Source: Sphaerolaimus hirsutus (taxonomy: Eukaryota; Nematoda; Chromadorea; Monhysterida; Sphaerolaimidae). Taken from it: a DNA stretch of 64,000 bases. A model generated the notes under the pieces. It was not told the origin of the DNA. It ran no database searches and was given only the letters and a program-made list of their open reading frames with translations. Made by a program: the position numbers and the translations under genes. The first letter of the stretch is position 1, and each line of letters opens with the position of its first letter. Below are positions 162 to 61,369 of this stretch, piece by piece. The stretch lies in NCBI GenBank assembly GCA_964036195.1, contig OZ038451.1, forward strand, positions 30,583,927 through 30,647,926. Direction: 5' to 3'.

Positions 162-2836
162 GTGAGCTCGTTGATTCGATTTGATATTTGTTATTATTCA
201 TGTCCTTCGCGGACAGCATAATATGCATCAATTTATCAAATTAATTAATTTAATTAATTTGATTTTTTATGGTATTTAATTGTTTTGGAACAATTTGACA
301 AAAAATCGCATGCGAAATGCAGAGACGCTGACATCGTCCAGCTGCGATGGGAGCAGTTGGAACAGAGCGCCACATTTCACATTCAAAAATGCAGGCAATC
401 CATCGGACGAACATTCTCCATACCCGATCAAACGCCTTCTAAACGCCAATCTTTTGAATGAGCCAGGTGCCAATTCCAAAAGTGCACCGGTGACAAGAAA
501 AGTGCTACGTGGTGGATCGAGTTTTAAATAACGATGGAAAATATTCTGGAAAAGTGTGTACATTTGTAAGTGTTCTTTATTCAATGACTTTTCGTAACTT
601 TTATGACATAAATACTTTTTTCAACTAGATTATTGCATTTTAAAATGTTTCTGGTGCCGGTTCCGCAAGTGGAAAAGTTAAGAGTAAAGAGTTAAGAGTT
701 GATTAAAATGATAAATGATAAGTAAAGAGTAGAGTTAAAAGTTAAGAGTTGAGTAAAATCATCTGTCGTTTTTTTCAACTCTTAACTCATAACTTAACTT
801 TACTCATAACTTGCCATTTGTTTTTTTACTCAAGTTTTAACTCTTAACTTTATACAACTCTGTTTTGCTGCGCCGCATAACCATTTGCACATTTTTTGTT
901 TTGCCCCTATGGTGAAACAAGTTTTGTATTGTGTTGCATTTTATTCATGCATTTTCAAACAAACACACCGAAAAAATTGAGAGAAAAAACTTTCCAAATT
1001 TTCTACCTTTCAAATCGTTGTTAGGCATCGTTAAAAATGGTATTTAGGTACATAAATTGTAAAAATTCAACTTATATAGTCAGCGTACATGATACTCTGC
1101 CCTCGCACTGATGTGTCTCGTGTTGGAAGCGTGCCAATGATTATTAAATCATGCGATTTCTGTAAAAAGATGAAAAAGTCTTCGATGTGAATATGTTAAT
1201 GAATAACATTATAACAACAATCAATTTTATCATCTTTTTATGAAACTTGCACGCGTTAACCATCGTTGGCACACTTCCAGCGGGAACCACGCGTGCAGGG
1301 TGTAAAGTAACCGGAGTATAACTAACGATATCTCTAAATGTGAATGCATATTATTTTTAGTTTAGTTTGACTTGACAGTTGACACTTTCCTTGTCACTTG
1401 TCACTTTTGGAATTGGGCCCAGATCTACTCAGTGAGAATCTATTTAACCCAAAAAGTGGTCAGCCTCAAGGGAAAGTCCGTGTGAAGCGGTCATTGGGCA
1501 TTCCGTCGGGCGGGGCGGAGCCCAATTTGAACAGGCCGGAAAGGAAGGCCACAATGTTGGCAGATAAAGCTGTCACGCAGAGATATAGAAGAAAGAGCAG
1601 TGGGGTGAGTGGGTTGTCAAAAGATCAGTAGTCAGAAACAGCATTCCAAAATTAAAATTTGATATTTATTACCATATTAAATACCTCCAGTATAAGATAT
1701 ACCTTACCGTATTTGTCTGAATAATCCCCCTGGGGGATTAATATTTCGCCAGACTTTTTTTTTGGGGGGGGGGAATTATTCGAGGGGGAATTATTCTTTC
1801 ATCAAAATGTTCGAGTTTTTTTTCTATCAAGTCATTTCACGAAATGTGCATTTTTAACACAAAAACGTGCCATTTTTGTTAAAATTTGGCACAACTAATT
1901 GATGAAATATCTTTAAGGGGGAATTTTTATTTCCTCACTCGTCTTTCAGGGGGGGTTATTCGAGGGAGGGACTTATTCAAGGGGGGAACTATTCAAGCAA
2001 ATACGGTATATTGATTTCGTTACCTTCAAAAATCCAAAACTTGTACTTTATCATACAGGGTACCTCATATTTGAGGTATACCTTATATTGGAGGTAATAC
2101 GGTAGTATTTTCTCCGTGTTTTTTTTCCACCAAAATTCAAATTACATTAAGTGTTGGAAATTTCAAAATTTTTTGGATCTCGGTTCACGCTTCAAAAAAA
2201 TTGCGGTTCAGGTATCGGTTCCGGTACTCAGGTTCGGTTGCGGTCAAGTTAGTTCGGATCAAAAACGATTAAAATTTCATTTCCAGATGATAAAATTATC
2301 GGGTATCGGGTAAAAAAAAGCAACGTCAAAAACAATGATGCGGCCCGGGAGTAAAGTTCTGATATCAGTACCAGTTCGGGTATGAGCTTCGGTTCCGGTT
2401 CCGCTTCTCTGTTCCAAAACATGCTTGGAAACACGGTTCGGTTCGGTTCATTTCGGTAGCGTCTCCCGAACCTGAAAACAACTATAAAAAATTACACTGA
2501 AAATTTAAAATTAAAATAAAAATAAAAACAGCTATAAAAATTTATTTTTTACACAGAAAGTTTGTTTTAAAAATTGTTTGTCAAAAGAAGGAATAATGAC
2601 AGAAATCCTAATCGAAAAAAAGTTCATTGAAAATACGTCAAGTAATGATTCTAAAATTTTCAAAATGCGCGCAGGTAATAAGGCACAAGCTTAATAAAAA
2701 GATCAGCACAAAATCGTCACCAAAATGCAGAAAAAATTCACGGAGCAGACAAGAAAATGTTCCTAGTGTTCATGGAGCACAAAAATCAAATATAACTGAT
2801 TGTGATTTTGATGGATCTGTTACTGGAACCGCAACA
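83..2836 (+). CDS. Gene 1a: four exons of an unrecognised protein
   Basis: Four open segments join with matching phases: 83-161 (phase 0 in, 1 out), 323-466 (1 in, 1 out), 1423-1604 (1 in, 0 out) and 2675-2836 (0 in, 0 out). Every boundary has GT and AG. The combined product is hydrophilic, rich in Ser, Asn, Lys and Arg, with no domain I recognise; peptides such as SLGIPSGGAEPNLNRPERK and FNPKSGQPQGK are clearly protein-like. Two acceptors (82 and 1422) are the right ends of M-family elements, and the intron 467-1422 is one entire M element. The model is partial at both ends. The next plus-strand exon, at 7202, needs a phase-1 donor, so either one exon is missing between 2837 and 7201 or a new gene starts at the ATG at 7222. 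Function unknown. Confidence 0.6.
323..466 (+). CDS. Gene 1a exon
   Basis: Acceptor CGAAATGCAG, donor GAGCCAG|GTGCCAATTCC. The frame is open for 47 codons and is Ser/Asn/Pro rich. The donor GT is the first two bases of the M element that fills the following intron. Confidence 0.6.
467..1422 (+). mobile_element. M-family introner: whole intron of gene 1a
   Basis: The intron starts GTGCCAATTCCAAAAGTG and ends CACTTTTGGAATTGGGCCCAG. These ends are inverted copies of each other, so the intron is one inverted-repeat element. CAG stands on both sides (464-466 and 1420-1422): the left copy ends the exon and the right copy is the acceptor. Joining across the element completes codon G|AT and keeps the frame open on both sides. 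A second M-type end starts near 654 and a family Q element sits inside. Confidence 0.85.
1092..1319. repeat. Family Q inverted-repeat element
   Basis: The motif GTTGGAAGCGTGCCAA near the left end reappears inverted as TTGGCACACTTCCAGCG near the right end, followed by ACGCGTGCAGGGTGTAAAG. Related copies lie at about 44930-45120 and, inverted, at about 45549-45810. It is nested inside the M element at 467-1422. Confidence 0.6.
1423..1604 (+). CDS. Gene 1a exon
   Basis: Phase-1 acceptor, then 60 open codons, basic and Pro/Gly rich, to the donor AGTGGG|GTGAGT, a good consensus site. The GC content is clearly above that of the flanks. Confidence 0.65.
1672..2102. mobile_element. Family A-type TA MITE, outer copy
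   Basis: The left end CCATATTAAATACCTCCAG and right end TTGGAGGTAATACGG are inverted copies with TA on both outer sides. A second A element (1707-2006) sits inside it. Confidence 0.5.
1707..2006. mobile_element. Family A TA MITE, inner copy
   Basis: Ends CCGTATTTGTCTGAATAATC and ATTCAAGCAAATACGG, flanked by TA at 1705-1706 and 2007-2008. The inside holds G-rich repeats of the form GAATTATTCGAGGGGG. Confidence 0.75.
2103..2674. repeat. Degenerate GGTTCGG-type repeat and A/T-rich intron
   Basis: From about 2185 to 2480 the motif GGTTCGGT/GGTATCGG recurs on one strand and then in inverted form. It looks like an old motif-array element, but I could not define its ends. The remainder is A/T-rich with nothing recognisable. 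Confidence 0.3.
2675..2836 (+). CDS. Gene 1a exon
   Basis: Acceptor GCGCGCAG, donor GCAACA|GTGAGA, 54 whole codons, Lys/Ser/Arg rich with an acidic end. Phase 0 on both sides matches the exon ending at 1604. Confidence 0.5.
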
Positions 2837-3626: not shown

Positions 3627-4740
3627 TTGGCTCTACACTAGTGATGGAATGGCGCCATGGCGCTGGCGCCAATTTAGGGCGCCAAAGGGCGCCGCGCCAT
3701 GGCGCCAATTTAGGGCGCCAAAGGGCGCCGCGCCATGGCGCCATTGGCGCTTGGCGCCCTTTTTCTGTGGCGCCCACAATCTGAAAGGCGCCATGGCGCC
3801 CTTGGCGCTTGGCGCCCTTTTTCCGTGGCGCCCTTGGCGCCTGGCGCCCTGCTTTAAAAGGGCGCCAAAAAGGCGCCAGCAGGGTTTCAAGGTGAGTGCT
3901 GTGTAAATGAAAAAAAAGATGAAAAACGCATCTGTGGATGATCTAAATTCGGCAGAAAAATGGACGAAGTGGTGTGAGCGAGTGAAAATCTTTTGTGCAA
4001 CGGTTCATCAGATGTGTCTGACAGATCAGAAGACGAGAATGATGAACCGTTGAACTTGCAAAATCATAAATCAACGGATTCAAATCGTTGCAAATCCATT
4101 TTTTGTTCAATTCAAGGAAACCTTGATTGGCAAAGTCTATTTGAAGTGAATGGATTGTTGTCAAATGACAATATCCATTGTGTTTGAATTCGTCATGTGG
4201 ATTTTATTTAATTTTTTTTGTTCTAGTGTTGTTTTTGTTCATTACATCCTGGAGAACGCAAATTAAGTAGTGAATGTGTGTATTAGGGTGCTGTAGAACC
4301 TGTTTTAGCACACGCAGGGCGTTCTATGCACTTTTTTATCCTGGTGCCCTTGGCGCCTGGCGCCCTATTTTTCAAACGGCGCCATGGCGCCCTTGGCGCT
4401 TGGCGCCCTCTTTCCGTGGCGCCCGCTTTCCGAATGGCGCCATGGCGCCCTTGGCGCCTGGCGCCCTTTTTCTGTGGCGCCCTTGGCGCTTGGCGCCCAC
4501 TTTCTGAATGGCGCCATGGCGCCCTTGGCGCCTGGCGCCCTTTTTTCTGGCGCTTTTCCATCACTACTCTACACGCACTAGTTTTCAACGGATATTTTGA
4601 AAACGCAGAAATCAGCTTTGAACGCATAGCAGTTCTCTTCAATGAGGCGTCCTCCAAGTTGATCAGAATAGAAAATACCTAACTAATTCCGGTAAACTTG
4701 AATGCGTCCGATGTCGATTTATGAGATTTCAAAGTTTTTG
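3627..4740. mobile_element. Family F element split by a hAT insertion
   Basis: The F terminus GGCTCTACAC stops at 3638 and resumes after 4574 as GCACTAGTTTTCAACGG. The two halves are separated by the hAT-like element 3639-4566, whose 8-bp duplication is part of the F end. The typical F inner arms (ATCAGCTTTGAACGC) follow. Confidence 0.55.
3639..4566. mobile_element. hAT-like element C1 with GGCGCC arrays
   Basis: Termini TAGTGATGGAATGGCGCC and GGCGCTTTTCCATCACTA are flanked by the perfect 8-bp duplication CTCTACAC (3631-3638, 4567-4574). Both subterminal zones are dense arrays of GGCGCCATGGCGCC and CTTGGCGCTTGG units. The 450-bp unique core starts GGTTTCAAGGTGAGTG and is shared with C3 and the truncated copy at 4900-5656. 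It has no intact transposase frame. The 8-bp duplication and TAGNGNTG ends fit the hAT superfamily. Confidence 0.85.
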
Positions 4741-4754
4741 TAGAAAACTACCTA

Positions 4755-5656
4755 CCGTATATCCTTGAATAAGACCCCAGGGGCGTTATTATTTCGTCAG
4801 AGGTTTTGGGGGGGGGGGGAGTTATTCAAGGGGGGTACTATTCAAGGGGGGAGTTACTTTTTCCTCAGAACTTCCAGGAAAACTTTCACTTTATGCATTG
4901 TTTGTATGCTTTTTCCGTGGCGCCCTTGGCGCCTGGCGCCCTGCTTTAAAAGGGCGCCAAAATGGCGCCAGCAGGATTTCAAGGTGAGCGCTGCGAAAAC
5001 GATAAAAAAGCGCGTCCGTGGATAATCGAAATTCGCTGGAAAAATACACGTGGTGCCAGTGGATTGAAATCGTTCGTCCAATGGTTTTCCAGACACTTCG
5101 GCTGGAATGATGGGCCGTGCAACCTACAAACTTGTCAATCAACGGATTCAAATCGTTATAATTCCATTTTTATCCACTTCAAAAAACATCCATTGCAAAA
5201 AAATCTATTTGAGGTGAATGCTTTGCGACAATTTTCATTGTGTTTGAATTAAAATTCACGTGTGAGTTAATATGATTTTATGCAAAATTTTTGTTGCTAG
5301 TTTCGTTTTTGTTGATTACATGCTAGAGAACATAATTAAAGAAGTGATTGTGTAAAATATAGTGTTGGAGAACCATTTTTAGCACACGCAGGGTATCATA
5401 CACACTTATTTATCCTGGCGCCCTTGGCGCCTGGCGCTCTAATCTTCAAATGGCGCCATGGCGCCCTTGGCGCTTGGCGCCCTCTTTCCGTGGCGCCCTT
5501 GGCGCCTGGCGCCCACTTTCCGAATGGCGCCATGGCGCCCTTGGCGCCTGGCGCCCTTTTTCTGTGGCGCCCTTGGCGCTTGGCGCCCAGTTTCCGAATG
5601 GCGCCATGGCGCCATTGGCGCCTGGCGCCCTTTTTTCTGGCGCTTTTCCATCGCTA
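4755..5656. mobile_element. Truncated A element fused to a left-truncated C element
   Basis: An A left end (CCGTATATCCTTGAATAAG after TA) runs to about 4900. There it abuts a GGCGCC array and a C-type core that ends TTTTCCATCGCTA at 5656. The C element lacks its left terminus, so no duplication can be scored. Confidence 0.5.
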
Positions 5657-5800
5657 ACTGGGTCCTGGTAACTTTTTTTCAGTTCTGGGCGACACCATTT
5701 TCAGACCAAAATATGTAAATATTATGTTCCGAAAACTTTCGGCGTCGACATTGGCATGAAAAAGTATTCTCAATTTCGAATTTTTTAAGTCGATTGTATT

Positions 5801-6008: not shown

Positions 6009-6649
6009 ATTGCACAAATTTAAATTAAATCCTTCATAATTTAGTAGTATTAGGTACACGTTGGCGTTCAATTTTTTATGCGAAAATAGATTGTTAATTG
6101 CGTTTGATTCGTACTGATCGGTAATCGACACGATATTACGGCCATTTTTCACAAAAATATAACGAAAATCTTCTCTTCATACAAAATGCACCTTTCTTAC
6201 CACCACTACATTTTCAATCGTAAAAACGCAATTTCAAAGATGGCCAAAATGCGGAAACAGCTGGCCTTGTTTGTTGGCATTTGGATACTCTGCGGGATTA
6301 CGTTTCAAGTGCAGGTTTTCACCGCTAAATACATCAACTTTTACATTTATTGACCTCAATATGTACTTATGTACCTACCCTGTTTCTTTTAGCATATGGA
6401 TAATTTAACCGAAAATATTTGTGTTTTTGACTGATTTTTGAAACCTATTATACGTGTTTCATGTGGAATATTTAGATCCAGAAACGAATACAGTGCAGTT
6501 TTTTGAAAAGTTTTTCAAGAAAACTTCCCCGGAACATTTGGAGCCTATAAATATGTCACTTTACGAAGTTTGAAATGACTAACTTAAAGATTCTGAAAGA
6601 TTTCAGTAAATTCTGACAAAATTCGACATTTTTCTATCAGTTCCATTTA
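6009..6649 (+). other. Mostly unannotated stretch with one signal-peptide-like ORF
   Basis: A/T-rich. A small open frame from ATG 6186 (inner ATG 6240) to a GT after CAG at 6314 encodes a peptide whose C-terminal part, LALFVGIWILCGITFQVQ, resembles a signal peptide or membrane anchor. No neighbouring exon matches its phase. It could be a first exon or chance. Confidence 0.2.
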
Positions 6650-7076
6650 CCGTATTACCTCGAAATACCCCCAGGGGGTTTATTATTTCGCCAGCAAAAT
6701 TTGAGGGGGGGATAATTCGAGGGGGGGTTTATTCGAGGGGGGGGTCTATTATTTCGCCAGAAATTTTCGAAAATTCCCCATACGCAGACGTAGAAAAATC
6801 AAACAATTACATAGATGTATGTGTGTTTATAGGCATCTATAACTGTATATACACAAAAACCCTTCCCTAACGTCACTTAATCATCAGTTTTAACGTGTGT
6901 TCTGCATTGTACAGAACACAAACTGTGGTATTTGTCATGTACGTTCATGTTACACTCAGTTTTAGGGGGGGTATTTCGAGGGGGGGGTTTATTATTTCCT
7001 CAGCCGAAATTTAGGGGGGGTATTTCGAGGGGGGGGTTAATTCAAGGGGGGGGGGGGTTAATTCGAGGTAATACGG
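6650..7076. mobile_element. Family A TA MITE A3
   Basis: Ends CCGTATTACCTCGAAATACC and TAATTCGAGGTAATACGG, with TA on both sides (6648-6649, 7077-7078). The middle carries the A core seen near 45240-45420 (AATCAAACAATTACATAGAT and relatives). Confidence 0.8.
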
Positions 7077-7201
7077 TAAATAAATAGGCACACACACTTG
7101 ACATTTGAACGAAAGACTGGCAAAATTACCGGTTGCCAATTTTTGATCTAAAACATTCAACCTAAGCCTAAAACCTAGAACCTTAACTTTCAACCTCCAA
7201 G

Positions 7202-7315: not shown

Positions 7316-10300
7316 GTGAGACGCTAAGATTTCTGATACTGTTTTTATTGCAGCCCCCCCCACTTGAATAAGTCCACCCCTTGCATGTGGCAAGTCCCTC
7401 ATTGCGTAAAATTTATACATTTCGAATAAGTGATAAAATTTGCATGCCTCCAAAGTGAACCTAGCATTCCCATCCACAGTATCGTCACTCCAAGTGAAAA
7501 TAGGTATGGACTTAAGACACCCCCTACCCCTCCAAAAAAACCCCCCACCCCAATCAGACACATCGGGCACTTCGCGTCAAGTGCGCCTTTTGGCCGAATC
7601 GTTGCATCAACGTTGGCTTTCAGGTGCCATTCCCGAACCCTGTAGAATGGACTGTAAAAAATGGTAATGTCATGCAAAGTGTCTAATGGCCCTACACACA
7701 CTAGTTTTCACCGTGACCTGTGTGAAAACTGAAATGGCCACATGGCCACATTCAGTCTACTCTTATCGTATGCTATATGTGTTTTAGTTTTCAAATTTTG
7801 AAACTTCTACCTTCATTAATTTAAATTCAAATTTAATCAAAATTAAATCATTCAACCGTGTCCATCAATTTGCATTTGAAATTTTTTTTCAGTTTTCACA
7901 CGAAGTCACGGTGAAAACTAGTGTGTGTGTGTAGGCACAATTTATGTCAACGTGGTAAAGTACAAATCTGAAATGCTCACTAAAATGTCGAAATATATTC
8001 TTGTTACCCTATGTTTGACATTTTTCACGAGATTTTACATTACTTTTGACACTTTTGCCATATTTCATAAAATTGACGTTGTCCAGAGCATTTTTCAGAC
8101 AATTAGCATGACACTTGATATTTTACAAGGCACTGTACAGGGTGCGGGAGTGGCGCCAGACATGGGATTTGCGCCCACAGCTGCGAGACTGGTTGCCAGG
8201 CTGTCAGATTTGAGGGGTGAAGGTGGAGATGCGACCTTCGAGAGTATAATTTATGCACTGCTGATGAATGATTATAGGGACAGGTGAGCGTTTTTTAATT
8301 TCTTAAGTTTCTCAATTGCTTTCTAAGGTGTCCGTCAACTGCAGTTGACAAAGATTCTAAATAAAGGAGTTGACAAAGTAAACTCAAATACTTTCAACGT
8401 GATTCATGAGAACCAAATTTGAATTGAGTTCTTTAAGCAAACCAGCAAAAACAGAATATTGAAAAAATTGTGGAAACACCTCGAGCCTCGATTCAAAGCC
8501 AATTTTTAATGGGTAGTTAAATTGAGGCGAGTCTATGGGCACAACACATTTCTGTGCCATGTTACAACTCAGACCATATTTCTATGAGTTTTAACCTCGA
8601 TTCACAACTCGAGTTCGAACTTTTTCGCTTTTTCAAACTCCCCAATATTTTTCATTTTTCACTCACATTTCCACGCATACCGTATATCCTCGAATAAGTC
8701 CCCCGGGGAGTTATTTGTTCGTCAGTGTTTTTGAGGGGGGGGGGGGTTATTCAAGGGTGGGGAGTTATTCAAGGGTGGGGAGTTATTCAAGGGAGGGAGT
8801 TATTTTTTCCTCATAACTTTCAGGAAAACTTGCAGGTAGGTAGGTGTGTATACACTGCATAAAATACACACTGTGTATGTGCTTTCGCTGCTGTAGGCTA
8901 ACATTCTTTTGTATTTTTGTCTCACACACTGCACTGCATTTGCATTACGTTTTTCACTTGTTGCACCATTTTCCACACTCATCACAGAGGGGGGAGTTTT
9001 TCAAGGGTGGGGAGTTATTCAAGGGGGGGGGGAGTTATTTTTTCGTCAGCGTTTTTGAGGGGGGAGTTATTCAAGGGTGGGGGGTTAAGGGGGGGTCTTA
9101 TTCGAGGATATACGGTAAATATTTTTGCAGAAAATCTCTGTGCCAGCAGTCTCCATCGATGCTGTGCAACAGTGCCCAATTTGCATTTGAATTTTACGAT
9201 CATTTCAGAGATCGAGATACACTTTACCAGGGGCTTATTGATGTTCTCTTGGATTACCTGGACATGCTGGTAGGCAGTAATTGCTGTCAATCATTGGAAA
9301 AGACTATGTAAAGTGCCATGTAAAGTGTGAAATGTCAGGCAAAGTGTCAAGTGCCAATTTTTAAGGATATTTTACATGAATTTTGACACATGCACGTCAT
9401 TGACCGTATTTCTTCTAATAGAACGGCATACCTCCAATAGAACGGCACTTCTAATAGAACGGCAGTTTTTGGCGCGTTTTTGCACTCATGGAAACAATAG
9501 AACGGCAACTTCCAATTGAACGGCACCTACAATAGAACGGCACGTAGAAGTTTCGTTCGTTAGACGGTAGATCGTTTGGAGTATGCCAGAACACAAAGAA
9601 TGGATGGTGAGAACGTTTAAAGCATTCAATAGGATGTTAAATTACAAACTGATGCTATGATATCTAAATATTGCTCAAGCTTTATAAAAAATAAGGCTAT
9701 GTGCAAATGAGTAAATGTGTGAAAAAAGTTGGCAAAAAAAATAGAACGATAGCCTCCAATAGAACGGCACCTCCAATAGAACGGCATGTAAAAATGTTGA
9801 CGATAAAAATAGAACGGCGCTCTTCTATTAGAAGAAATACGGTAACATATAAATAGCATGACTTTGGACACTTTGCATTACATCTGGGGCCATTCAAAGG
9901 GGGGCTTATTCAAGAGTTTTACAGTAGACAAAACACAAACCCCTCTAAACCTCCCCTGTTCATCAAGGCAATTTAATAAAAGTGTTTTTCTAAACATTAA
10001 GGTTGGGGTGGAATGTTGGACGGCGCAGAACGCCAGCGGAGCGCCGGTGGAGTTGGCGTCTCGCTTGCTGCAGCATTTCGGTGCGCACATGCAGGCGCTC
10101 AGGTACAAGCGAATGCAGGTTTGTTGCCTTTGTGAAATACATACCGTATTTCCTCGATATGGGGCAGGCCTGATACGCACATCTGCCCTTTACGCACATT
10201 CGCCAGTTTTTTTCACTTGACACTTTTTCAAGTGATTTTCAGATATGAGTGAAGTGAAAAAAAGTTGTGCAATGACATTAGTGAACTTTTTTCACTCCAC

Positions 10301-13300
10301 TCATATCTGAAAATCACTTTAAAAAGTGTCAAGTGAAAAAAACGGGCGAATGTGCGTAACGGGCAGATGTGAGTATCAGTGCAACCCCCTCGATATACCC
10401 CCCTCGAAATAAAATTGGCATTAGAAATTGTCTGGTGCACTGGAACTTGTGACAAGACCATCTCAACAAATTGCTTCAATCGCAACTCCCAAAATTCCAG
10501 TCAATCTGCTTGGCAATCAGGAGAATATTAGTGTGTTCCGGTCATCAATTGACTCAAACTGTCAGATGCAGACTGATGGAAATCATCGAACTCTCCCAGT
10601 GCAGGCGCCAGTCCCGAACCATGTAAAGTGGTCCGTAAAGTGCAAAATGTCATGTGAAATGTCATACAAATTTGTCAAATTTCCTGCGAAATGTCAAAGC
10701 TTCAGCAAAAAAGTCTTTTTTCTATTTAATTATTTTAATTGATATTTTACATGACATTTGACACTTTACTCAACACTTTACAGGTTTCGGGATTGCTTTC
10801 AGATGGGATGTAGATTCGTTGCCAAGCGGGGTGGCTCAATTTTACAGGGTGCACAGCGATTTAGAAGATGTAAAGAGTGACTTGGAAGAGGTAAGTCTGA
10901 TTGAACGATATTTGGTGTGGTTTTACGCTTGTGATATAAAGAATTGACTCTAGTGGACAATTTCATCAAGTGGACAAGTGACAAGAAAAGGGGTAAGTTG
11001 TCGGTTAAGTAATACGTGATGTGACCGGGGGTGCACTGATACGCACATCTGCCCGATACGCACATTTGCCCGTTTTTTTTCACTTGACACTTTTTCAAGT
11101 GATTTTCAGATATGAGTAAGGTGAAAAAAGTTGCGCTATGACATTAGTGAACTTTTGTTTGACTTCACTCATATCTGAAAATCACTTGAAAATGTGTCAA
11201 GTGAAAAAAACAGTGAAAAATAGCCATTTTTCACTGTTTTTCTCTTGACACATTTTCAAGTGATTTTCAGATATGAGTAAAGTGAAAAAAGTTGCGCTAT
11301 GACATTAGTGAACTTTTTTCACTTCACTCATATCTGAAAATCACTTGAAAATGTGTCAGGTGAAAAAAACAGTGAAAAATAGCCATTATTCACTGTTTTT
11401 CACTTGACACATTTTCAAGTGATTTTCAGATATGAGTGAAGTGAAAAAAGTTCACTAATGTCATTGCGCAACTTTTTTCGCTTTACTCATATCTGAAAAT
11501 CACTTGAAAAAGTGTGAAGTGAAAAAAACGGGCAAATGTGCGTATCGGGCAGATGTGCGTATCAGGCCTGCCCCGATGTGACCAACCAACTATTGATGGA
11601 ATGGTGCCATTTTAAGCCGGAATTAGAGCTCGAGCATGTAACGTGAAATGATGACGTGGAATGTTTGACGCGAAAAGTTTTGACGTAAAAAGATTTTTGA
11701 ATTACAGCTATCTGACGTAGAAAGATCCGACGACATGTTGACGTAAAAAGATCCGACGACATCTTGACGTGAAAAGATTGGACAATATAATGATATAAAG
11801 ATGATTTGACAATGGGGCCACACACACTGAAACTGAAAATTTCTGCATACCACATTTTCAACTGCCAAATCCAAACCGGAAAATTTATGTTTGGACGGGT
11901 TTTTCAGTAGGTTTTTGTAGGTATACTATAGGTGTTTTGACCCTGTGGCGCTGGCGCCATTTAAGGGCGCCAAAGCGCGCTGGGCCATGGCGCCAGTGGC
12001 GCTTGGCGCCCTTTTCCTGTGGTCCCTGGCGCCTGGCGCTTTGTTTCAGAATGGCGCCCTTTCCGTGGTGCCCTTGGCACCTGGCGCTCTTATGAAGAAT
12101 GGTGCCATGGCGCCATTGGCGCTTGGCGCCCTTTTTTCTTCGCTTTTCCATCACCTTACCATAGTTGTAAAAACGTGTTTATGTTTACTCGATAAGTACA
12201 GATACTTAATTACTGTGTAAACACATGTACGTTACCCCTAAAAAAATACTGGTATACTCAGTGTTGTTACAATACAGGTATTTTTGGAAAATGTAAACAT
12301 AAATGTAAATACCTTTTAGAATTCAGAAGTATAAATACTAAAACGTAGGGTATTTTTAAAATACCTAGGAAAACATAAAATAAAACATGAACGTAAAAAT
12401 TTTATCGAGTGCTGTCAGAGAAAAAGTTTTCACAGTTTTTACAATATTATAGATGTTCCTTTGATCTTATTCGACATTATCTGCTTACATATTTCTTAAA
12501 TTTAGAATGATGGGTTTGGTATATTGAATAGTTACTGGAAGGTGCCGGTCCCAAGCGCTGTAAAGTGTAAAGTAAAGTGTCAAATGTCATGTAAAACGTC
12601 AATCAAAACAAAAAAAAGAAAAGATTTTATAACTGAACCTTACTTTAACTTTGACACTTTATGTTCCTTTACCGTATTTCCTCGAATTACCCCCAGGAGG
12701 TTTATTTTTTCAGAATGGAAATTTTGAGGGGGGTTGAACGAGGGGGTATTTCGAGGAAATACGGGAAATGCGCTGTTGTCACATTTTTATAATTTTAGAT
12801 GACAGAAAAATATTTTAAAAGTGATTTTCCAGCGGGGTTGAATGCCATTCTAAATGTGCTGAATAAAAATGGTTGAAATTTTAAGAATCCAATAGACACC
12901 CCAGTTCCCATCCCACGCAATAATGTGGCCCACACATTTGTTTACAAGTTTATTTCGGTATTTTGTGAAATAAATGGGCTTCATTTAATTGAAGGGCTTC
13001 AATTGAAAAAAAAATCGAAAGTCAGTGAAATTTTAAACATGTGCCTCCACTTGCGAAATTGGCACTCTCTTCACGTTAAAGCATGTTGAACTCATCATTA
13101 CACACTACGTTTGTCATAAAATACGGTTCCATGTAACAAATTTTTTTAATTTTCTCTGATAATTGTGCCAGGAAAACGTAACAAAATGAAATGGTATTTT
13201 TGGAAAGCGTAAACATAAACACAAATATAAATACCTGAATAATGGGGTATTTTGGGTAAACATAAATACCTTTTTGCAACACTGGGTATACTCACATACT

Positions 13301-27681: not shown

Positions 27682-28160
27682 GGGCCAGTTCCGCAAGTGG
27701 ACAAGTTAAGAGTAAAGAGTTAAGAGTTGAGTAAAATGACAAATGGCAAGTTAAGAGTAAAGTTAAATGATAAATGATGAGTTAAGAGACAAGAGTAAAT
27801 TTAAGAATAAAGTTAAATGACAAATGATTAGTTAAGAGATAAAAGTAAAGTTAAGAGTCAAGCAAGTGTATCCAAATCTTTTTTTTTGTATCCAGATCTT
27901 ATGTTTTTGTATCCAAATCGTATTTTTGACATAAGATTTGGATACAAAAAATAAGATTTGGATACGAAAAAATAAGATTATGATACACTTGCTTGACTCT
28001 TAACTTTACTCTTATCCCTTAACTAATCATTTGTCATTTAACTTTACTCTTATCTCTTGACTCATCATTTATCATTTAACTTTACTCTCAACTTGCCATT
28101 TGTCATTTTACTCAACTCTTAACTTTTAACTCTTAACTTTTCCACTTGCGGAACTGGCCC
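27682..28160. mobile_element. M-family element M2, long palindrome
   Basis: GGGCCAGTTCCGCAAGTGGA and TCCACTTGCGGAACTGGCCC end a nearly complete palindrome of AAGTTAAGAGTAAAG repeats. CTG on both sides (27679-27681, 28161-28163). Neither strand offers a GT at the donor side, and it lies beyond the stop codon. Confidence 0.8.
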
Positions 28161-28163
28161 CTG

Positions 28164-38792: not shown

Positions 38793-40385
38793 ATCCAAAC
38801 AGCGCATAATACAAACAGCATAATCCAAACCAAAATGAGGCAAAATCCAAACGAAAATGAGGCATAATCCAAACACTTTTTGTGCCACCAAACTGCACCA
38901 TAATCCAAACAGAAATGAGGCAAAATCCGAACAAAAATGAGGCATAATTAGTGATGGAAAAGCGCCATGGCGCTGGCGCCTGGTGCTAGCGCCAAAGCAA
39001 AAAGCGCCATGGTGCTTTTGGCGCTTGGCGCTAAAACGCTCTGGCGCCATTGGCGCTTGGCGCCAGGATCTGAGAAAGCGCCATGGCGTTTTTGGCGCTT
39101 GGCGCCATTTTCTGGTGGCGCTATTGGCGCCTGGCGCCGGCATTTAAAATAGCGCCAAAAAAGCGCCAACCTTGATTATAAAATTGTTATGATTCAGTGA
39201 AAATAGACAGGCCAGTTGATCAGTTTTGAGAATGAATCAATAAATATTGATAGATATAAGGGTATAAGGGAACATTTATATACATAAAATATCAATTAGG
39301 TAAAATTTGAGGCAAATATACCCTCAAGGGGTTTATTTTTTCAGAGTGCAAATTTTGAGGGGGTATTTCGACAGAGGGGTTTATTATTTTGCCAGGAGTT
39401 TTCATAAAGGATCGTGTAAACAATATGTATTTACTTACATACCCATAACTGGTGATAAACATGACTAAATGGGATATAATATTTAGGACCTATCAATGTA
39501 CAACTGTTTGGCTGAAAAATAGGTGTATCCATTGGGATTTTAACGATGTATGAAACATTGCAGTGGTTGATTAAACTTCAATGGCAAATGTTAAATCGAC
39601 TACTGCGACATCAGCGGTATGTCACAGCTACGAATTGATTATTCTACAAACAAATTGCAGAAAATTTTTTTTGGTGCTGGCGCTATTGGCGCTTGGCGCC
39701 ATTACCCTCTGGCGCCATTGGCGCTTGGCGCTGAGGTTCAGAAAAGCGCCATGGCAACTTTGGCGCTTGGCGCTATTTTGCTCTGGCCACATTGGCGCTT
39801 GGCGCTGAGGTTCAGAAAAGCGCCATGGCGACTTTGGCGCTTGGCGCTATTTCGCTCTGGCGCCATTGGCGCTTGGCGCTGAGGTTCAGAAAAGCGCCAT
39901 GGCGACTTTGGCGCTTGGCGCTATTTTGCTCTGGCGCCATTGGCGCTTGGCGCTGAGGTTCAGAAAAGCGCCATGGCGACTTTGGCGCTTGGCACTATTT
40001 TACTCTGGCGCCATTGGCGCTTGGCACCAAAAGCCAGAAAAGCGCCATGGCGCTTTTGGCGCTTGGCGCCAAAAGTCTGGCGCTTTTTCCATCACTAGGC
40101 ATAATCCAAACACTCACTTTGCCTGTTCTCATGCATTCATGTATTTATTTACATCTGATGTTGCCATTTTAACAACCACTGCACTAAAATTGCAATAATG
40201 GTAAAAACTATCCATTGGTCACTTCAAAGCTACAACTCAAGTCATTTTCCCATTAAATCTGCCTCTTAAATCTCAAGTGGTGTTCACGTCTTTGACAGAG
40301 TTTTGACAAGCGTTTGCATTTTGCCTCATTTTTGTTTGGATTATGCTGTTTGGATTATGAGCTGTTTGGATTTTGATGCAGACTC
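38793..40385. mobile_element. Family R element (AATCCAAACAG arrays) split by hAT C4
   Basis: The left zone repeats CATAATCCAAACAAAAATGA units. The right zone (40320-40385) carries the inverted form ATTTTTGTTTGGATTATG. The hAT element 38949-40097 is inserted in one unit. Confidence 0.6.
38949..40097. mobile_element. hAT-like element C4 with GGCGCC/GGCGCT arrays
   Basis: Termini TAGTGATGGAAAAGCGCC and GGCGCTTTTTCCATCACTA, 8-bp duplication GGCATAAT (38941-38948, 40098-40105). The right array has four near-identical units of about 92 bp containing CGCTGAGGTTCAGAAAAGCG. The core is unrelated to C1/C3. Confidence 0.85.
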
Positions 40386-46793: not shown

Positions 46794-49460
46794 CTGGTGC
46801 CACTCCCAGACACTGTAAAATGTTCTGAAAAATGTCAAATGTCATGCAAGTGTCAAAAGTCATGCAAAATGGCCTATGCATGCCATGCAAAGTGTCAAAA
46901 GTCATGTAAAATGCTATGTAGAATGGCAACCAAGGTTATCCATGTTGCAGGACATTTTGCAAGATTTTTGACACTTTGGATGACATTTGACATTTTATAG
47001 GGCATTTTACAGGATCTGGGAGTGGCCCCTGGCAGGAGTAGGGCACACGAATGGGGCGTATCCTACTCGTGATTAGGGTGCTTAGGGAGCGAGACAGGGA
47101 GCGGTGCCGAAAGTAGCCTGTAGGGAGAATGAAGTGCCTATGAGGAAATATGTCTTTTCAGCTTTTCGATTCACCGCTTTACATCAAAAAATGGGTGTGG
47201 GATGACTGTGAAGTGGGCTGGATGCATGTGAAGCGGCATGCTTCCACATACTCCCATCAGCATCATGAAACTTATGGTGAAGTGTCTTCCACATGCTTCA
47301 CCTGGCTTCACATGCATCAAAAATTAGTGTAAAGCTGCCATACCCATTGTACCCCAGCAGAAGGATGGTGGCATAGTTTTGTACTCAGAAATAACCGCTT
47401 ATCATAAGAGGCGCAACAACCCATATTGTGCTTGTGACATTCACATGAGTAGTGATGGAAAAAGCGCCAGGACTTTGGCGCCAAGCGCCAAAAGCGCCAT
47501 GGCGCTTTTCCTGACCTCAGCGCCAATGGTCTCCTCTATGTTATGGTCTCCAATGGGGGTTTGGAAGCGGGGTGGGTAACCCACTTCCAATTCACCCAGC
47601 TATCTATCTAGTGATCTTTTTATGCAATTATTTTAGCTACTATGCCCTGGCTGAAACCCTGCCCCCAAATCAGGCAGCTATCTATCTGGAGTGACTTTTT
47701 GTAGAAGTTTCGCCTCAATTTTTGCTAAAAAATCACCTATTTTCAACACTTTTAGCCTATTTTGTCCTTCAAAATCTATTGTTAAGTGCCTTATAGTTTA
47801 TTTCCAGCTATTTTTGGAAATATATGCACCTGTATACTGTATTTCTCGTAACAGAAGTTCTGTTTCTTTTGTCAACTTTGTGAGCTGCACTTCTATTGGT
47901 GACCACCCTTCTATTTTTTGACAACTTTTCAGCTAAACTTTTTCAAGTTCTGCCAACGCTTTTCACAGTGTTACGTTTCACAATATTTTTTAAATATTAG
48001 CCCTCTCTTATAATCTTTTTTAACCACAATTCCACGCCCAAATTCAGTTGAAATCACCCATGTTTGACAAAAGGTTATGTACAGGGTGGGGCAATTTAGA
48101 CCTACGCTCTGGATTTCGAATAACTTGTCACTGGGAGATCGGATTGACGTGAAATTTTAGGTCAACATTAACAACTAAATAGGAAAGGATCCCTGAAAAT
48201 ATGGCTGCCATAGCTCCACTCTAGTTGTTCATGCAAACACAAAAAATTTCGCTTTACTGCCACCTTGCTTTACAATTTCCTTATCGGTAATGCGGATTAG
48301 TGGTGCGCGAGCACGCATTTTGGCATGCCACTGCGAATAAAAAGAGAGACAAAATTTGTAAAAACAATCCCAATCCCAATCCGGGTCCCGAAAAGTGGAT
48401 CCCGTTTGAAACCTATCATGGGGTGGTGGTAAAGTGACAATTACGCATTTTCATCAATAACTTGTAAACTAGTAGAGCTATCGCTGCCATATTCTCAGCG
48501 ATTCTTACCTATTTAGTTGTTAATGTTGACCTAAAATTTCACGTCGATCCGACCTCCCAGTGACAAGTTATTTGAAATCTAGAGCGTAGGTCTAAATTGC
48601 TCCACCCTGTATGTAATGAGTCAACATAAAATGGATTTGATGGATGAAATCACCAGGCCATGGCTCCATACTTTGCAGCCATTGTATTGCTGTATGTAAG
48701 ATTACAAAGTAGTCCAACTTGTCTGATATTTAAACGTTGCGTATGATTAATCTGCACATTTTTCACGCTGGTGTTGGCGCTTTTTTGGCGCTTTATAAAA
48801 CACCAGCGCCAAGCGCCAATGGCGCCAGGCCATCATAGCGCCAAGCGCCAAAAGCGCCATGGCGCTTTTTCATCGCACAGCGCCAAGCGCCAATGGCGCC
48901 ACAGCAAAAAGGCGCCAAGCGCCAAAAGCGCCATGGCGCTTTTTGCTTTGGCGCTAGCGCCAGGCGCCAGCGCCATGGCGCGTTTCCATCACTACACATG
49001 AGTCAAAATTTCACCTTGTAACACCTTCTTATCGGAGCCCTTGTGTGAAGTTGGCAGCCAGCCAAAAATTTCGAAATCGCCATAAATATAAATGAAATTG
49101 GCTAAAAATAGGTATATAACTATGTATATTGATGAAAAATGTGATTATAACTGTGGAAATTGGCAAAATGGAACAAATTTTAGTAATTTTTAGCTTTCAC
49201 TTTCGTTTGTACATTACGCCCTTGTGAATGTCACAATGTGACAGTAAAATTTCTGCATGTGACAGTCACAAGCGCACAAGCACTTACGCCGCTTATGCGG
49301 CGCTTATCTTCAACATAGTACCCACAGTTTCAGCAAAAACTAACCGGGTTGGCGCACAACGGTTGTATTGGTTGAATATTTTATTGAATCGACCACTCTC
49401 TGGGCCCTCTGCTGGGAGCGCACTTTTAGACTGTATGCATCCCAGGCAGGCCTGGGGTAT
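46557..49460 (-). CDS. Gene 3: 3' exons of an unrecognised protein
   Basis: Terminal exon 46793-46557 (phase 0, 78 codons and stop) with a Gly/Tyr/Trp-rich tail (SGRYGLGPWFWGFPGPVYG). The penultimate exon 47117-47029 has a strong acceptor (TCTCCCTACAG) and encodes RSLSRSLSTLITSRIRPIR. Between them lies L-family element L7. A likely earlier exon is 49460-49345 (LGCIQSKSALPAEGPESG); its best donor (after 49345, phase 2) does not fit, while GTGCGC after 49358 (phase 1) does. The protein is basic and may be small; no family recognised. The exon at 54917-54765 could belong to the same gene, but gene 4 lies between them. Confidence 0.55.
46797..47028 (-). mobile_element. L-family element L7 occupying a gene 3 intron, donor lost
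   Basis: On the minus strand: TGCCAG|GGGCCACTCCCAGATCC ... GAGTGGCACCAG. CAG is on both sides and exon phases agree (0/0). The first dinucleotide is GG rather than GT, so normal splicing would fail unless another donor is used or the base is an error. Confidence 0.65.
47029..47117 (-). CDS. Gene 3 penultimate exon
   Basis: Phase 1 in, 0 out, after the acceptor CATTCTCCCTACAG. Encodes a basic, Ser/Arg-rich peptide ending VPYSCQ. Confidence 0.6.
47450..48994. mobile_element. hAT-like element C5
   Basis: Termini TAGTGATGGAAAAAGCGCC and GGCGCGTTTCCATCACTA, 8-bp duplication CACATGAG (47442-47449, 48995-49002). Short GGCGCC arrays sit at both ends. The 1.2-kb core contains the mariner-like MITE at 48082-48609. 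Confidence 0.85.
48082..48609. mobile_element. Mariner-like palindromic MITE (family D)
   Basis: Ends CAGGGTGGGGCAATTTAGAC and GTCTAAATTGCTCCACCCTG, TA at both sides (48080-48081, 48610-48611). Arms of at least 120 bp carry CGGATTGACGTGAAATTTTA and its inverse. Confidence 0.85.
49345..49460 (-). CDS. Candidate upstream exon of gene 3
   Basis: Acceptor AATTTCCAATTGCAG, Ser/Ala/Pro-rich peptide ACLGCIQSKSALPAEGPESG. The donor is ambiguous (after 49345 or 49358). The opposite strand is open as well. Confidence 0.4.
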
Positions 49461-50749: not shown

Positions 50750-52148
50750 CTGGGGGCAGTCCCAAGCCCTGTAAAGTGTAAAGTAAAGTGTCAAATGTAA
50801 AGTCAAATGCAAAGTAAAGTGTCAATCAAAACAAAAAAGAAAAGATTTTTTTACTGAACTTTGCATGACAATTGACACTTTACTTTGCATTTGACTTTAC
50901 ATTCGACACTTTACTTCACACTTTACAGGGCTTGGGACTGGCACCTGGCGGCGGCCTTGTAGCCCCTGGGGTGGTCCTGCCAGGGCTTGACGTCCAGCGG
51001 CCAGGGGTACCACTCGGTGTGGATGTGGCCGTCGTGCCAGTGGTTGTAGCTGAGCGCGTCCCACGACCTGGGAGGGGTCTGGTAGGGCGAGCGCAGCTGC
51101 GACGCGAACTTGCGCACCAGCCAGTAGTACTCCTGGTTGATGTCCTCGTCGTACGACCGCCTTCGAGTGCCGGGACACTTGGGCTTGGGGCTACCGTATT
51201 TCCTCGAAATACCCCCCCTCGAAATTCCCCCCCCCCTCAAAATGGACACTATGAACTTATCACCCCCCCCCCCCCTCGAAATACCCCCCCCCCCCAAATT
51301 TAGTGTATAGAGAACGTAAATGACAAAGGCTGCGGTTTGTCATCCCGGCAATGCAGAACACACGTATAACGATGACTCTGTTATGTGAGAACAGTGTTTG
51401 TACGTCTACACACTTATAAATGTCTTTAGAGTCTCATGAATGGCGATTTTTGTTGCATTTTTCGACGTTTCAGACGACATTTTAGTACTGGGATTTCAAA
51501 AAATTTCTGGCGGAATTATAAACCCCCCCTCGAAATACTCCCCCCTCGTTTAACCCCCCCTCAAAATTCTCACTCTGAAAAAAACCCCCCGGGGGTATTT
51601 CGAGGAAATACGGTAATTAGGTCTCCCTACATGTACACTGCAAGAAATATTTATGTACAGTGGGTGTGAAGTCGGCTGGATCTGTCTGAAGCAGCCATTG
51701 CGAAGATATTTACGTGGCATTTTGTTGTGTATCACACACACACACACACACACACATATTTCTTGCGGTGTAAACTGAATGGAACTCAAATATAGAACAT
51801 AAAGGCATCAAAATAAAATCCAAAAAAAACAATTTGCACACATTGTCGTGCAAAAAAAATCAATTTACAATTCCTGGCAAACCTTGGTGTGGGTGCGACA
51901 GTGGAGGGCACATTTGAAGCATCCTGAAAAAGCGAGAATTTCTCAACATTTGGCAACTTTCCAGCATGCACACAAAATCGTCTAACCGAGGAAAACAATT
52001 TCGCCAGACGGGAGTGATCCCTGGCGCTACTGAAGGACATATTAACAGCCCTCTTATACGCGTGTTCCATATTGGAGCCTAGTTCAGCGGCAGAAAGTCT
52101 CGACTCTCTCTGCTGCGCTGCCACCACTGATTGACTGCGGCGCACCAT
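50722..52148 (-). CDS. Gene 4: complete three-exon gene, 179 residues
   Basis: Exons 52148-51883 (start ATG with AAAA upstream), 51190-50945 and 50749-50722 (stop), all junctions phase 2 and GT-AG. Exon 1 is Ser/Arg/Ala rich (MVRRSQSVVAAQQRESRLSA). Exon 2 holds a striking Trp/Tyr/His/Pro segment (SWDALSYNHWHDGHIHTEW then YPWPLDVKPWQDHPRGYK) preceded by DEDINQEYYWLVRKFASQL. The exceptionally high GC of exon 2 and the rare-residue content argue for a conserved protein, but I do not recognise the family; His-x-His and Trp clusters could bind metal. No signal peptide or membrane helix. Intron 1 contains family A MITE A18 with its TA two bases from the acceptor. Intron 2 is exactly introner L4. 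Confidence 0.8.
50750..50944 (-). mobile_element. L-family introner L4: whole intron 2 of gene 4
   Basis: Minus strand: GCCAG|GTGCCAGTCCCAAGCCCTG ... CAGGGCTTGGGACTGCCCCCAG|GAGG. CAG is on both sides. The arms are inverted copies around GTAAAGTGTAAAGTAAAGTG repeats. Confidence 0.92.
50945..51190 (-). CDS. Gene 4 exon 2
   Basis: GC-rich; encodes KPKCPGTRRRSYDEDINQEY and the Trp/His-rich block. Phase 2 at both ends. Confidence 0.8.
51194..51613. mobile_element. Family A TA MITE A18 in intron 1 of gene 4
   Basis: Standard A ends with TA at 51192-51193 and 51614-51615. The acceptor TAG uses the A of the duplicated TA. Confidence 0.85.
51732..51756. repeat. CA microsatellite
   Basis: About 12 uninterrupted CA units. 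Confidence 0.9.
51883..52148 (-). CDS. Gene 4 exon 1
   Basis: ATG in a good context, 88 codons, donor CCAAG|GTTTGC, phase 2. Ends NVPSTVAPTP. Confidence 0.75.
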
Positions 52149-53344: not shown

Positions 53345-53357
53345 TAAGCTAGGAAAA

Positions 53358-58629: not shown

Positions 58630-58833
58630 GTAGACATGTAGTAGGGTATTTACGCGAATTTTGACACTGCGTGACATTTTAAAAGGTCTGGGAAAAGGCA
58701 AAAGAAGCCAACTCAATAATCATCCCACCGTTCACCGAAGAAAGTGCGTCATTAAACATTCAAATGAACGAATCCATTCAACTTCATTGCACTCTCGTGG
58801 TATTTGGCAAAGGTCCAAGTTATAAATATCAAG

Positions 58834-59021: not shown

Positions 59022-61369
59022 CTGTAGCAAGAAAATGTCTATACTCGGCGGACCGCAAAGTATGCGTCCAAAATTATAAGTACCTACCGTATTTCCTCGA
59101 ATTACCCCCGGGGGTTTATTTTTTCAGAGTGAAAATTTTGAGAGAAAAACGTGAAAAATGCAACAATAACCACCATTTATAAGTTTTTACAGCCTTATAT
59201 AAGGATGTAGATGGTATAAACGATGTTCTATCGTAACACAGTAAGTGTTTTGAACGTCTGTTATGCATTTCCCGGACCACAAATTCATAGTGCCCATTTT
59301 GAGGGGGGGGGGGGGTATTTCGAGGGGGGGGGGGGGTATTTAGAGGAAATACGGTACTTATGTCCTATACAATAACGCGCGAGCAGGATACTGATGAATG
59401 CACTTTCACAAAAAAAACATTTAATAAAAAGGAAAAGGCGGAGTCACGTAAATGCAAGTGATGAATGTTTTTGTCTGGAACGTTTTATCTTTTTGGAACT
59501 TTGGAGTTTTGATTTTATTCACGATGACATCATGGCATCAAAATGATTACCTACATACATCTGTAGTTTTTCTACAGCCAATGGGTAACATGTGTTACCT
59601 TTTTTACTCGCATTTGACTTATCGCTGTATGCGACAAGTAAACTTCATTTCATTTATTTTATCATGATTAGCATTGAAAAAATCTCAGGGAGATTTATAT
59701 TAAAAAAATCTAAGAAAATATAAGATTTTCTGAGATTAATATTTTTTGTCGATTTTCTGGAGAGATTTAATGGCCCTGCGCACACTAGTTTTCACACGAC
59801 ATTTCGAAAACTCATAAATGATCTTTAAACGTGTTTGAGTTTTCCACAATGAGTCATTTTTAATCTCCGCCAACTGCAGTTGACGGCCACCTCATTGTAG
59901 AAAACTCAAATCCGTTCTAAGCTGATTTGTGAGTTTTCGAAATTTCGTGTAAAAACTAGTGTGCGCAGGCACAATTATATTTTCTTTTTGAGAGATTTTC
60001 TGAGATTTCTAAAAATATCAGAAAATCTCTCAAATTCTGATATTTATATTTATTTATTTTTTTCCCAGATGTTTTGAGAGAGATTTAATTATATATTTTT
60101 CTTGAGAGATTTTCTGAGATTATATTTTCTAAAAATTGACGATTTTTCAATGCTAATCATGATGAAATGTTTCATCAGAAAAATGCATAACATGTTGTCT
60201 GCAAAGCATAAGCGCATTTACTCTAATACAAGGTCTTTCATACATAACTTGGTACTTTGGTACCAAATAACAAAAACATGAAGATTTCTTGGACATGGCG
60301 TATCATTGGACAAAAAATCCGTTACCAATTCATGTTACTGTTATCTAGATAACCGATTGAATTAGATCTAAACAGGAAATCTATTGAACAGAAAAGAAGT
60401 TGTGTCAACTAATTTGGTTGGTAATAACTACAGTTGGTAAATAATGTAAGAAAAACACAGAAAAGAAGTTGTGTCAACTAATTTGGTTGGTAATAACTAC
60501 AGTTGGTAAATAATGTAAGAAAAACACAAAAACAAACTTCTCTTAGTTTGCACGCTACTCTGGCCATGATAATGCATGGGGCACTTTTCATCCACATGCA
60601 GCATCCTCTCAATATCCACCATAACTTCATCAGGAGATTCTACCATTTCCACATGCACAGCACCATCAGATTTGCCAGCAGCATTGTCTGGTGCCAATCT
60701 CCCGGCAACTGGGGCACTCCCAGACTCTGTATAATGGCTTGGAAGATGTCAAATGTCATACATAGTGCCCTGGATTGTGGCGACACAGCAAAAAATGGGG
60801 GTGTGATGCGTCGTGAAGCGGCCTCTGTGAAGACACTTCCACACGCTTCAACACGCTTCACGAGATTTTTGGTGAAGTGTCTTCCACACACTTCACCTAG
60901 CTTCACGATGGCCAAAATTTCATGAAGCGCGCTTCCCGATGCTGACGCAGTGAAGACACTTCACAAACATTGTGCAGCATCGTTGACACACGTCTGTGAT
61001 GTGAAGTGTCATCACATTCAACTTTGTGAAGCGCCGGGAAGCGCCGACCAGCTTCGTGAAGCGTCGGGAAGTGTCGCCGTGAAGACACTTCACGACGCTT
61101 CACGACGCATCAAACCCCCATTTTTTGCTGTGCGAGTGAGTTTGTCATTTTCTAGGTAATTTCCCATTACTTTAGACACTTAGAATGATATTTGACATTT
61201 TACAGGACATTTTACAGGGTTTGGTGGTGGCACCAGAATTCACTGCTTTTGTCTGTAGTATAAAAATATCACTGGCTGTGGCATTGGCTCCAGGTGGCAA
61301 CTGCGTTTCCTTGCACGTGGGGCAACTGGCTTCTCTGCAAGTTTTTTGTGACATTTTATTCTCATAAAT
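58834..61369 (-). CDS. Gene 5: three exons of an unrecognised protein
   Basis: Exons 61369-61234 (or from ATG 61354), 60708-60559 and 59021-58834 (stop), each junction phase 1. Exon A: CREASCPTCKETQLPPGANA, with a C-x2-C pair. Exon B: acidic, ESPDEVMVDIERMLHVDEK, and ending MHYHGQ. Exon C: very basic, Lys/Ser/Arg rich, ending KKTSDSRSGFDDDSPSRI. No domain recognised; the basic tail suggests nuclear or nucleic-acid-associated. The intron between A and B is introner L5. The donor of exon B (CCAGA|GTAGCG) is chosen for phase. If ATG 61354 is not the start, the 5' end lies upstream. Confidence 0.6.
59087..59354. mobile_element. Family A MITE A24 in a gene 5 intron
   Basis: TA both sides; short subfamily with the same core as A20 and A21. 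Confidence 0.85.
59669..60155. mobile_element. hAT-like element U (GAGATTTTCTGAG arrays)
   Basis: TAGCATTGAAAAAATCTCAG and ATTTTTCAATGCTA termini, perfect 8-bp duplication ATCATGAT (59661-59668, 60156-60163). Arrays of AGATTTTCTGAGATT fill both arms. F7 is nested inside. Confidence 0.85.
59772..59972. mobile_element. Family F element F7 nested in U
   Basis: GGCCCTGCGCACACTAGTTT and AACTAGTGTGCGCAGGCAC, flanked by AAT on both sides (59769-59771, 59973-59975). Best preserved F copy. Confidence 0.8.
60370..60530. repeat. Tandem duplication of about 67 bp
   Basis: The block AGAAAAGAAGTTGTGTCAAC through AGTTGGTAAATAATGTAAG is present twice in a row without visible change. Confidence 0.85.
60559..60708 (-). 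CDS. Gene 5 middle exon
   Basis: Acceptor GAGTGCCCCAG (end of L5). Encodes AGRLAPDNAAGKSDGAVH and MVESPDEVMVDIERML. Confidence 0.65.
60709..61233 (-). mobile_element. L-family introner L5: whole intron of gene 5
   Basis: Minus strand: AATTCTG|GTGCCACCACCAAACCC ... GAGTCTGGGAGTGCCCCAG|TTGCC. The split codon G|TT closes. The duplicated triplet now differs by one base (CTG before, CAG after). Family G element G3 is nested inside. Confidence 0.88.
60784..61132. mobile_element. Family G element G3 nested in L5
   Basis: CACAGCAAAAAATGGGGGTG and CCCCCATTTTTTGCTGTG termini, flanked by CGA on both sides (60781-60783, 61133-61135). Arms of GAAGCG/CGCTTC motifs. Confidence 0.8.
61234..61369 (-). CDS. 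Gene 5 first recognised exon
   Basis: Acceptor AATTTTGCAG at 61370, or start ATG at 61354; 45 or 40 codons, phase 1 out. Encodes the C-x2-C peptide CREASCPTCKETQL. Confidence 0.6.

Follow-up and report, generated by a model that had tools for sequence, protein, structure and literature searches.

The origin of new introns is an old question, and it is raised anew by a stretch of 64,000 nucleotides of the Sphaerolaimus hirsutus genome (contig OZ038451.1, positions 30,583,927 to 30,647,926, hereafter the window), in which several genes carry whole introns of like sequence. A preliminary description had attributed five introns of this stretch, in four genes, to the inverted termini of one single element. 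The coordinates and ends of these five introns proved correct, each of them starting and ending at the inverted termini of an element, but these termini are of two types: L, beginning GTGCCAATTCC, in the intron at 467-1422, and M, reading GTGCCANTCCC..CCCTGTAAARTG with single changes, in the other four.

The L-type intron, L1 (467-1422, plus strand), reads CAG|GTGCCAATTCC..GGAATTGGGCCCAG| between CAG flanks and has further repeats nested within it. Three of the M-type introns are likewise flanked by CAG, namely M1 (7624-8159, plus strand, CAG|GTGCCATTCCC..GGGAGTGGCGCCAG|), which contains a second, nested repeat, M2 (38125-38313, minus strand, CAG|GTTTCACTCCC..GTGAGTGGCGCCAG|), and M3 (50750-50944, minus strand, CAG|GTGCCAGTCCC..GGGACTGCCCCCAG|), a 195-nt member of the youngest M subfamily located near the 3' end of its frame. 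The fourth, M4 (60709-61233, minus strand, CTG|GTGCCACCACC..GGGAGTGCCCCAG|), has CTG on its left and CAG on its right, so that the CAG described as preceding the element is found in four of the five introns, while the one closing the intron is found in all five. In the split codon of M4, this CTG is synonymous with CAG (serine, TCA/TCT).

Beyond these five, the window contains one more coding insertion, M8 (10605-10802, plus strand), an M-type element with CAG flanks that would be a GC-AG intron of the gene already carrying M1, which brings the coding insertions with exact ends to six (five M and one L). Positions 1-82 of the plus strand hold the 3' end of a further L-type intron, whose 5' end lies beyond the window (..GGAATTGGCCCCAG|, 18 of 24 terminus positions matching). 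Of the other copies, L3, N, M5, and M7 are non-intronic. L3 (27682-28160, flanked by CTG) and the palindromic element N (36016-36490, GGGCCAGATTTAATTC termini, flanked by CAG), neither of which has an assigned strand, have GGGCC termini that are perfectly symmetric over 20 nt, and neither resembles an intron. L3 is adjoined by L2 (28164-28529, plus strand), an L-type copy with a shortened right end and unequal flanks, CTG and CAG. On the minus strand, M5 (18783-18977) has CAG flanks when read GT-first and no open frame at its flanks, M7 (37674-37995) is non-coding, has CTG-type flanks and harbors a nested repeat, and M6 (46794-47028) lies between two open flanks in reversed orientation, with its GG end first and no terminal GT.

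Scanning the window for the M terminus gave 19 matches that agree in at least 19 of 26 positions, compared to one in total in 20 simulated windows. The L terminus gave 7 matches against 0-4 per simulated window, which is no proof by itself, and the L family therefore rests on its paired ends and on genome counts. Inverted termini with identical CAG or CTG flanks were found at 12 places of the window, in a search whose control triplets were not clean (AAA/TTT 20, TCA/TGA 19, TAA/TTA 17, AAT/ATT 13, CGC/GCG 11). The candidate at 24187-24866 was rejected as a CWG element since its inverted repeat extends outward beyond the triplet, and the places at 15367, 34534, and 52288 were set aside as likely due to chance.

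A genome-wide search for element ends in the 348-Mb assembly (762 contigs) yielded 10,995 exact GTGCCANTCCC M ends (5,517 + 5,478), compared to 166 (82 + 84) for the same pattern written backward. These GT ends are preceded by CAG in 4,255 cases and by CTG in 4,083 (controls 4 and 3), meaning that 8,338 of the 10,995 (75.8%) are flanked by CWG. CWG-flanked ends of the GG type (CWGGGGSCANTCCC) number 9,347 (control 108) and are thus roughly as abundant as the GT ends. Besides, the triplets match in 13 of 16 pairs of GT and GG ends on contig C1 below 3.43 Mb, drawn from the ends listed there (36 CAG, 31 CTG, and 71 GG). Among 28 elements paired by their sequence (window and loci L001-L028), 8 have CAG on both sides, 7 have CTG on both sides, and 13 have unequal flanks, some of the latter reflecting misplaced ends, as in M4 and M7, whose flanks are unequal through ends off by about one base. 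For the L type, 1,539 CAG-flanked CAGGTGCCARTTCC ends occur in the genome (control 0). M is thus a genuine transposon family whose insertion target is CWG, duplicated as 3 bp, and whose copies usually combine a GT end with a GG end.

These elements are also mobile, since M3 and M5, which occupy different targets, share 96.4% identity across all 195 nt, and near-identical copies are found elsewhere in the genome. A first look retrieved 1,133 relatives of M3, and all 40 that were scored (M3 included) are 96-100% identical over essentially their full length, an identity from which the M3 subfamily appears to be young. The many 1-195 matches among these 40 were not used as a sign of CAG excess, given that the ranking favors the last three bases. 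Viral and genome contigs scanned with the patterns gave zero matches, in a search from which records near the window were possibly excluded.

As to the class of these transposons, the NuwaI group of PIF/Harbinger-like (PHIS) elements is described as having a 3-bp CWG target duplication and termini that usually begin with GGG, and as being reported from animals only (PMC4482050, in the parts that deal with this group). Both marks are found here: the CWG duplication in M, and GGG-type termini in the 9,347 GG-type ends as well as in the GGGCC of L3 and N, the GT end being the one that deviates. In view of these two shared features, L and M likely belong to the NuwaI class. They differ from it in that one terminus of M is GTGCC, while the parts of PMC4482050 devoted to NuwaI do not describe its members as intron makers. 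Autonomous members of this group are expected to encode a DDE transposase and a Myb/SANT protein between shared termini. At least 163 matches to the PHIS transposase domain PF13359 were obtained in the genome (306 candidates, 150 of them scored), and a transposase with L or M termini was not found among the two families inspected. Read inward, the end of the commonest family is TGGCCCCGCGCACACTAG, and this different end led us to reject it as the source of L and M mobility; the second family inspected has an M3-like copy inside.

Taken together, these data suggest how such an element could become an intron. L and M are high-copy non-autonomous DNA transposons (MITEs) inserting at the palindromic triplet CWG and duplicating it, and a typical M copy is asymmetric, with GTGCC at one terminus and GGGG or GGGC at the other. 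An exonic insertion in which the coding strand reads CAG|GTGCC...GCCCC|CAG would form a potential new intron, the upstream CAG and the terminal GT of the element providing the donor, and the C-rich terminus followed by the duplicated CAG providing the acceptor. Splicing would then restore the original message exactly, so that the gene would tolerate the insertion in the form of a new intron. The arms of the youngest subfamily are predicted to fold into a single long stem, outside which the splice sites at both ends stay unpaired. This reading as a whole, that is, NuwaI-like CWG MITEs spliced at the terminal donor when they are exonic and on the CAG strand, is in our opinion a probable one.

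That the insertions are spliced as introns is suggested by the frames and genes around them. The split codons had been described as closing and the exons as staying open, and the joined frames are indeed open across these five introns, but CAG..CAG pairs of like span drawn at random from the window are equally open in about 3% of cases for 467 and 60709, 9% for 7624, 11% for 38125, and 44% for 50750. The last figure refers to the most open frame of 50750 and not to its presumed coding frame, which runs for 9 codons past the junction before a stop. Fisher combination of these figures gives p = 0.0055, and the openness of the frames is weak evidence that supports introns without deciding for them. 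Once M1, M8, and the ordinary introns are taken out, the six exons join into 184 codons in a single frame, although a second frame is also open around M8. Exact removal of M2 from the gene at 38125 gives a PF01234 match of 61.4 bits (cut-off 25) that crosses the junction, to be compared with 56.4 bits for the downstream exon alone and no match for the upstream part alone; the difference of 5 bits is a small one. This gene is predicted by its domain match to encode a methyltransferase of the NNMT/PNMT/TEMT type. Neither the NNMT-type peptide nor the LINE retrieved a match in protein searches. Four of the genes bearing insertions were assigned to no recognized family by Pfam and PDB searches, the PDB searches giving nothing useful and, in one case, a set of short matches to designed repeats. 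The gene at 7624 may resemble MIF4G, a likeness that Pfam and PDB did not return, and NDUFB8 was dropped for the gene at 50750 as a guess devoid of Pfam support.

One may argue from these figures that the exon frames arise by chance or belong to dead genes, in which the elements would be ordinary MITE insertions: random sites are as open in 3-44% of cases, and four of the genes have no recognized family. Nevertheless, the PF01234 match of 61.4 bits spans M2, the gene with M1 has a relative that is 54% identical, and the combined p is 0.0055, so that chance frames appear very improbable. Outside the window, four M3-like copies were picked from the top ten matches, and one of them (L064) lies between open, coding-looking flanks of 37 and 42 codons, while a second (L063) does not, and the remaining two (L062 and L065) are inserted at a CAG adjoining another M or L terminus. 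L016:4412-4597 is likewise bordered by open frames, of 73 and 53 codons. The joined flanks of L003, L013, L016, L017, and L028 have no Pfam match above the cut-off.

The best evidence for intron gain comes from a relative. When the peptide that the 7624 gene would encode after splicing was used as a query, a single protein was retrieved: P0001, encoded on a metagenomic contig, with 54% identity over 54% of the query. Across the M1 junction, its segment RLLAESMHQRWLSDSSF aligns with RLLAESLHQRWLS^DMGF of the window, with neither gap nor intron, and P0001 thereby represents the empty M1 site that the model predicts. Relatives that lack the introns had been proposed as a check, and they are now represented by this site, one of the six insertions. 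P0001 also has 16 additional residues elsewhere, which resemble an unspliced short intron. M1 was probably gained in the lineage studied here rather than lost in that of P0001. The same alignment bears on the idea that the introns are older and that MITEs merely landed inside them, next to the splice sites. Larger ordinary introns do contain many M copies, for instance in the PHD-finger gene of L027; yet in six cases the two exon edges fall exactly at the two ends of the element, and P0001 is devoid of an intron at the M1 site, which makes such older introns an improbable explanation.

A closer competitor concerns the donor that is used. In the seven M copies tested, a second GT-type donor (CCT|GTAAAA and similar) lies 18 nt inside the terminus, in frame and free of stops, so that the frame cannot separate the two sites. 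The introns might therefore be real but spliced from this internal CCT|GTAAAR, the insertion adding six codons, and either orientation could be spliceable given a CAG on the coding strand, since both termini carry the +18 donor. Compared with the donor consensus, the terminal site matches better in three of the seven copies, the two are equal in three, and the internal site matches better in one, which is to say that the latter is equal or better in four of seven. It would also be the sole route for the reversed M6: having no terminal GT, this copy is restricted to its +18 donor and could be spliced, if at all, only from there. Against this, the six added residues lower the PF01234 score at M2 from 61.4 to 57.9 bits, and the P0001 match at M1 falls from 116 bits with the terminal donor to 109 bits with the internal one. 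In the same line, the RNA structures predicted for M3, M5, and M8 pair the arms over most of the element and leave the terminal 2-4 bases and the last 5-7 bases unpaired, with the +18 site within the stem, though the terminal GT of M2 is paired in its own predicted fold. L1 has no internal donor at +18. The terminal donor is accordingly favored, and use of the internal one is considered unlikely.

While the anatomy of these mobile elements fits the earlier proposal that target and terminus together supply both splice sites, the idea of a dedicated introner whose copies are mostly intronic is to be rejected in light of the CAG:CTG ratio of 51:49 (an excess of 172 for CAG, p = 0.061), which makes insertion nearly neutral as to orientation. 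Since a CTG duplication, read GT-first, gives no AG acceptor, the terminal route to an intron is closed to about half of the M copies, and since the ratio is near 1:1 genome-wide, selection for intron function does not act on most copies. M5 itself has no frame open across both sides despite its 96.4% identity to the intron M3. Within the window, all six coding copies have a CAG acceptor, as retention predicts, but six are few and their recognition partly used that very feature. For a transposon that targets CWG and has GT at one end, the creation of introns is a by-product, and the outcome of a minority of insertions. The distribution of copies also speaks to a spread of the introns as RNA, by reverse splicing, as proposed for fungal introner-like elements. 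Near-identical introns at unrelated places would be expected from it, but the inverted termini, the CWG duplication, the copies devoid of open flanks, and the 4,083 CTG-flanked GT ends that are unspliceable at the duplicated triplet make it the most remote of the explanations considered.

Elements that generate introns are not new in themselves. Those of Micromonas and Aureococcus, in work by Huff et al. from 2016, are said to be MITE-like, with inverted repeats and a target duplication, and to support a DNA-transposon model. They would share with M and L a MITE-like, inverted-repeat and target-duplicating intron origin, and would differ by the host and the duplication, the elements of S. hirsutus using a palindromic triplet and being mostly not introns. 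In the sections of PMC9860276 that deal with Chrysochromulina sp. (Gozashti et al. 2022), the introner brings the 5' splice site and the 3' site derives from the target duplication, as appears to be the case for M and L, but the duplication is of 4 bp and terminal inverted repeats are absent, in contrast to the 3-bp CWG and the long inverted repeats seen here. The same source finds introners in only two groups of animals and mentions GC 5' splice sites in some introner families. The introner elements of Amoebophrya, in the portions of PMC7789003 concerned, have direct repeats of 3-5 nt at the edges of the intron, and their inverted repeats can fold into a hairpin bringing the exon borders together. 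M and L resemble them in both respects, while their putative splice sites are GT/GC-AG with one triplet type, as opposed to the non-canonical sites and varied repeats of Amoebophrya. Introners and Harbinger elements are named together in a fungal paper. A search that excluded subscription papers and preprints, where this family has possibly been described, found no paper with both introners and NuwaI. Introners being already known, what seems new here is a CWG-duplicating, inverted-repeat variant.

More speculatively, a CWG MITE of the PIF/Harbinger type may have gained polarity, one terminus becoming a GT donor and the other remaining C-rich, with a hairpin exposing both splice sites and the +18 donor held in reserve. 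Splicing would then silence those insertions that fall in exons on the CAG strand. This fuller scenario is put forward tentatively, with slightly more doubt than belief. The asymmetry of the termini suggests that the step from MITE to introner would have been a single one, the appearance of GT at one end.

A young transposon family thus seems to create new introns as a side effect. Because CWG is palindromic, a control is built into such genomes: GT-first, the CAG copies are spliceable at the duplicated triplet and the CTG copies are not, and the genome-wide ratio of about 1:1 separates insertion from retention in genes. If the reading in terms of polarity is true, the CTG copies would let selection on intron function be measured over thousands of insertions.

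Among the M elements, inverted-repeat transposons of which some copies appear to form introns, the intron candidate M3 (50750-50944, minus strand) and the copy M5 (18783-18977, minus strand), which is not flanked by open frames, differ at 7 positions in total. Two of these, positions 7 and 186, pair with each other in the predicted stem and have changed jointly from G-C to A-T. Besides, several M copies lie within ordinary introns of a PHD-finger gene found elsewhere in the genome (L027, 3700-4510; PF00628 match of 61.3 bits).

M copies also host, and are hosted by, other repeats. The PF13359 transposase profile recovered a high-copy PIF/Harbinger family (L029-L058) with the end sequence TGGCCCCGCGCACACTAGTTTAC; most of its 30 loci are 97-99.8% identical to one another. 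The window contains short relatives of this end at 7684-7711 and 59768-59795, one of them nested within the intron candidate M1 (7624-8159, plus strand). The non-coding copy M7 (37674-37995, minus strand) contains a nested repeat with CCGTATTTCCTCGAAATACCCCC-like ends, a type found in many places all through the window (for example at 37836-37972, 51190-51616 and 6648-7078). Conversely, an M3-like copy sits inside a second family (L059-L061), matched weakly by PF13359, and M elements therefore travel inside other transposons.

Further repeats were recognized by eye, namely long arrays in which GGCGCC/TTGGCGCC words abound (3640-5660 and 38960-40200) and a tandem duplication of ~70 bp (about 60388-60530). 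Two long frames resemble a LINE, with endonuclease and reverse transcriptase (30031-33017, plus strand), and a BEL/Pao-like polyprotein (63412-63870, minus strand); a protein search with the former returned no match.

Finally, at two genomic loci (L062 and L065) and at window 28160-28164, where L3 (27682-28160) abuts L2 (28164-28529), copies are inserted exactly at the CAG/CTG adjoining another L or M terminus, and element junctions already present thus seem to act as insertion targets.
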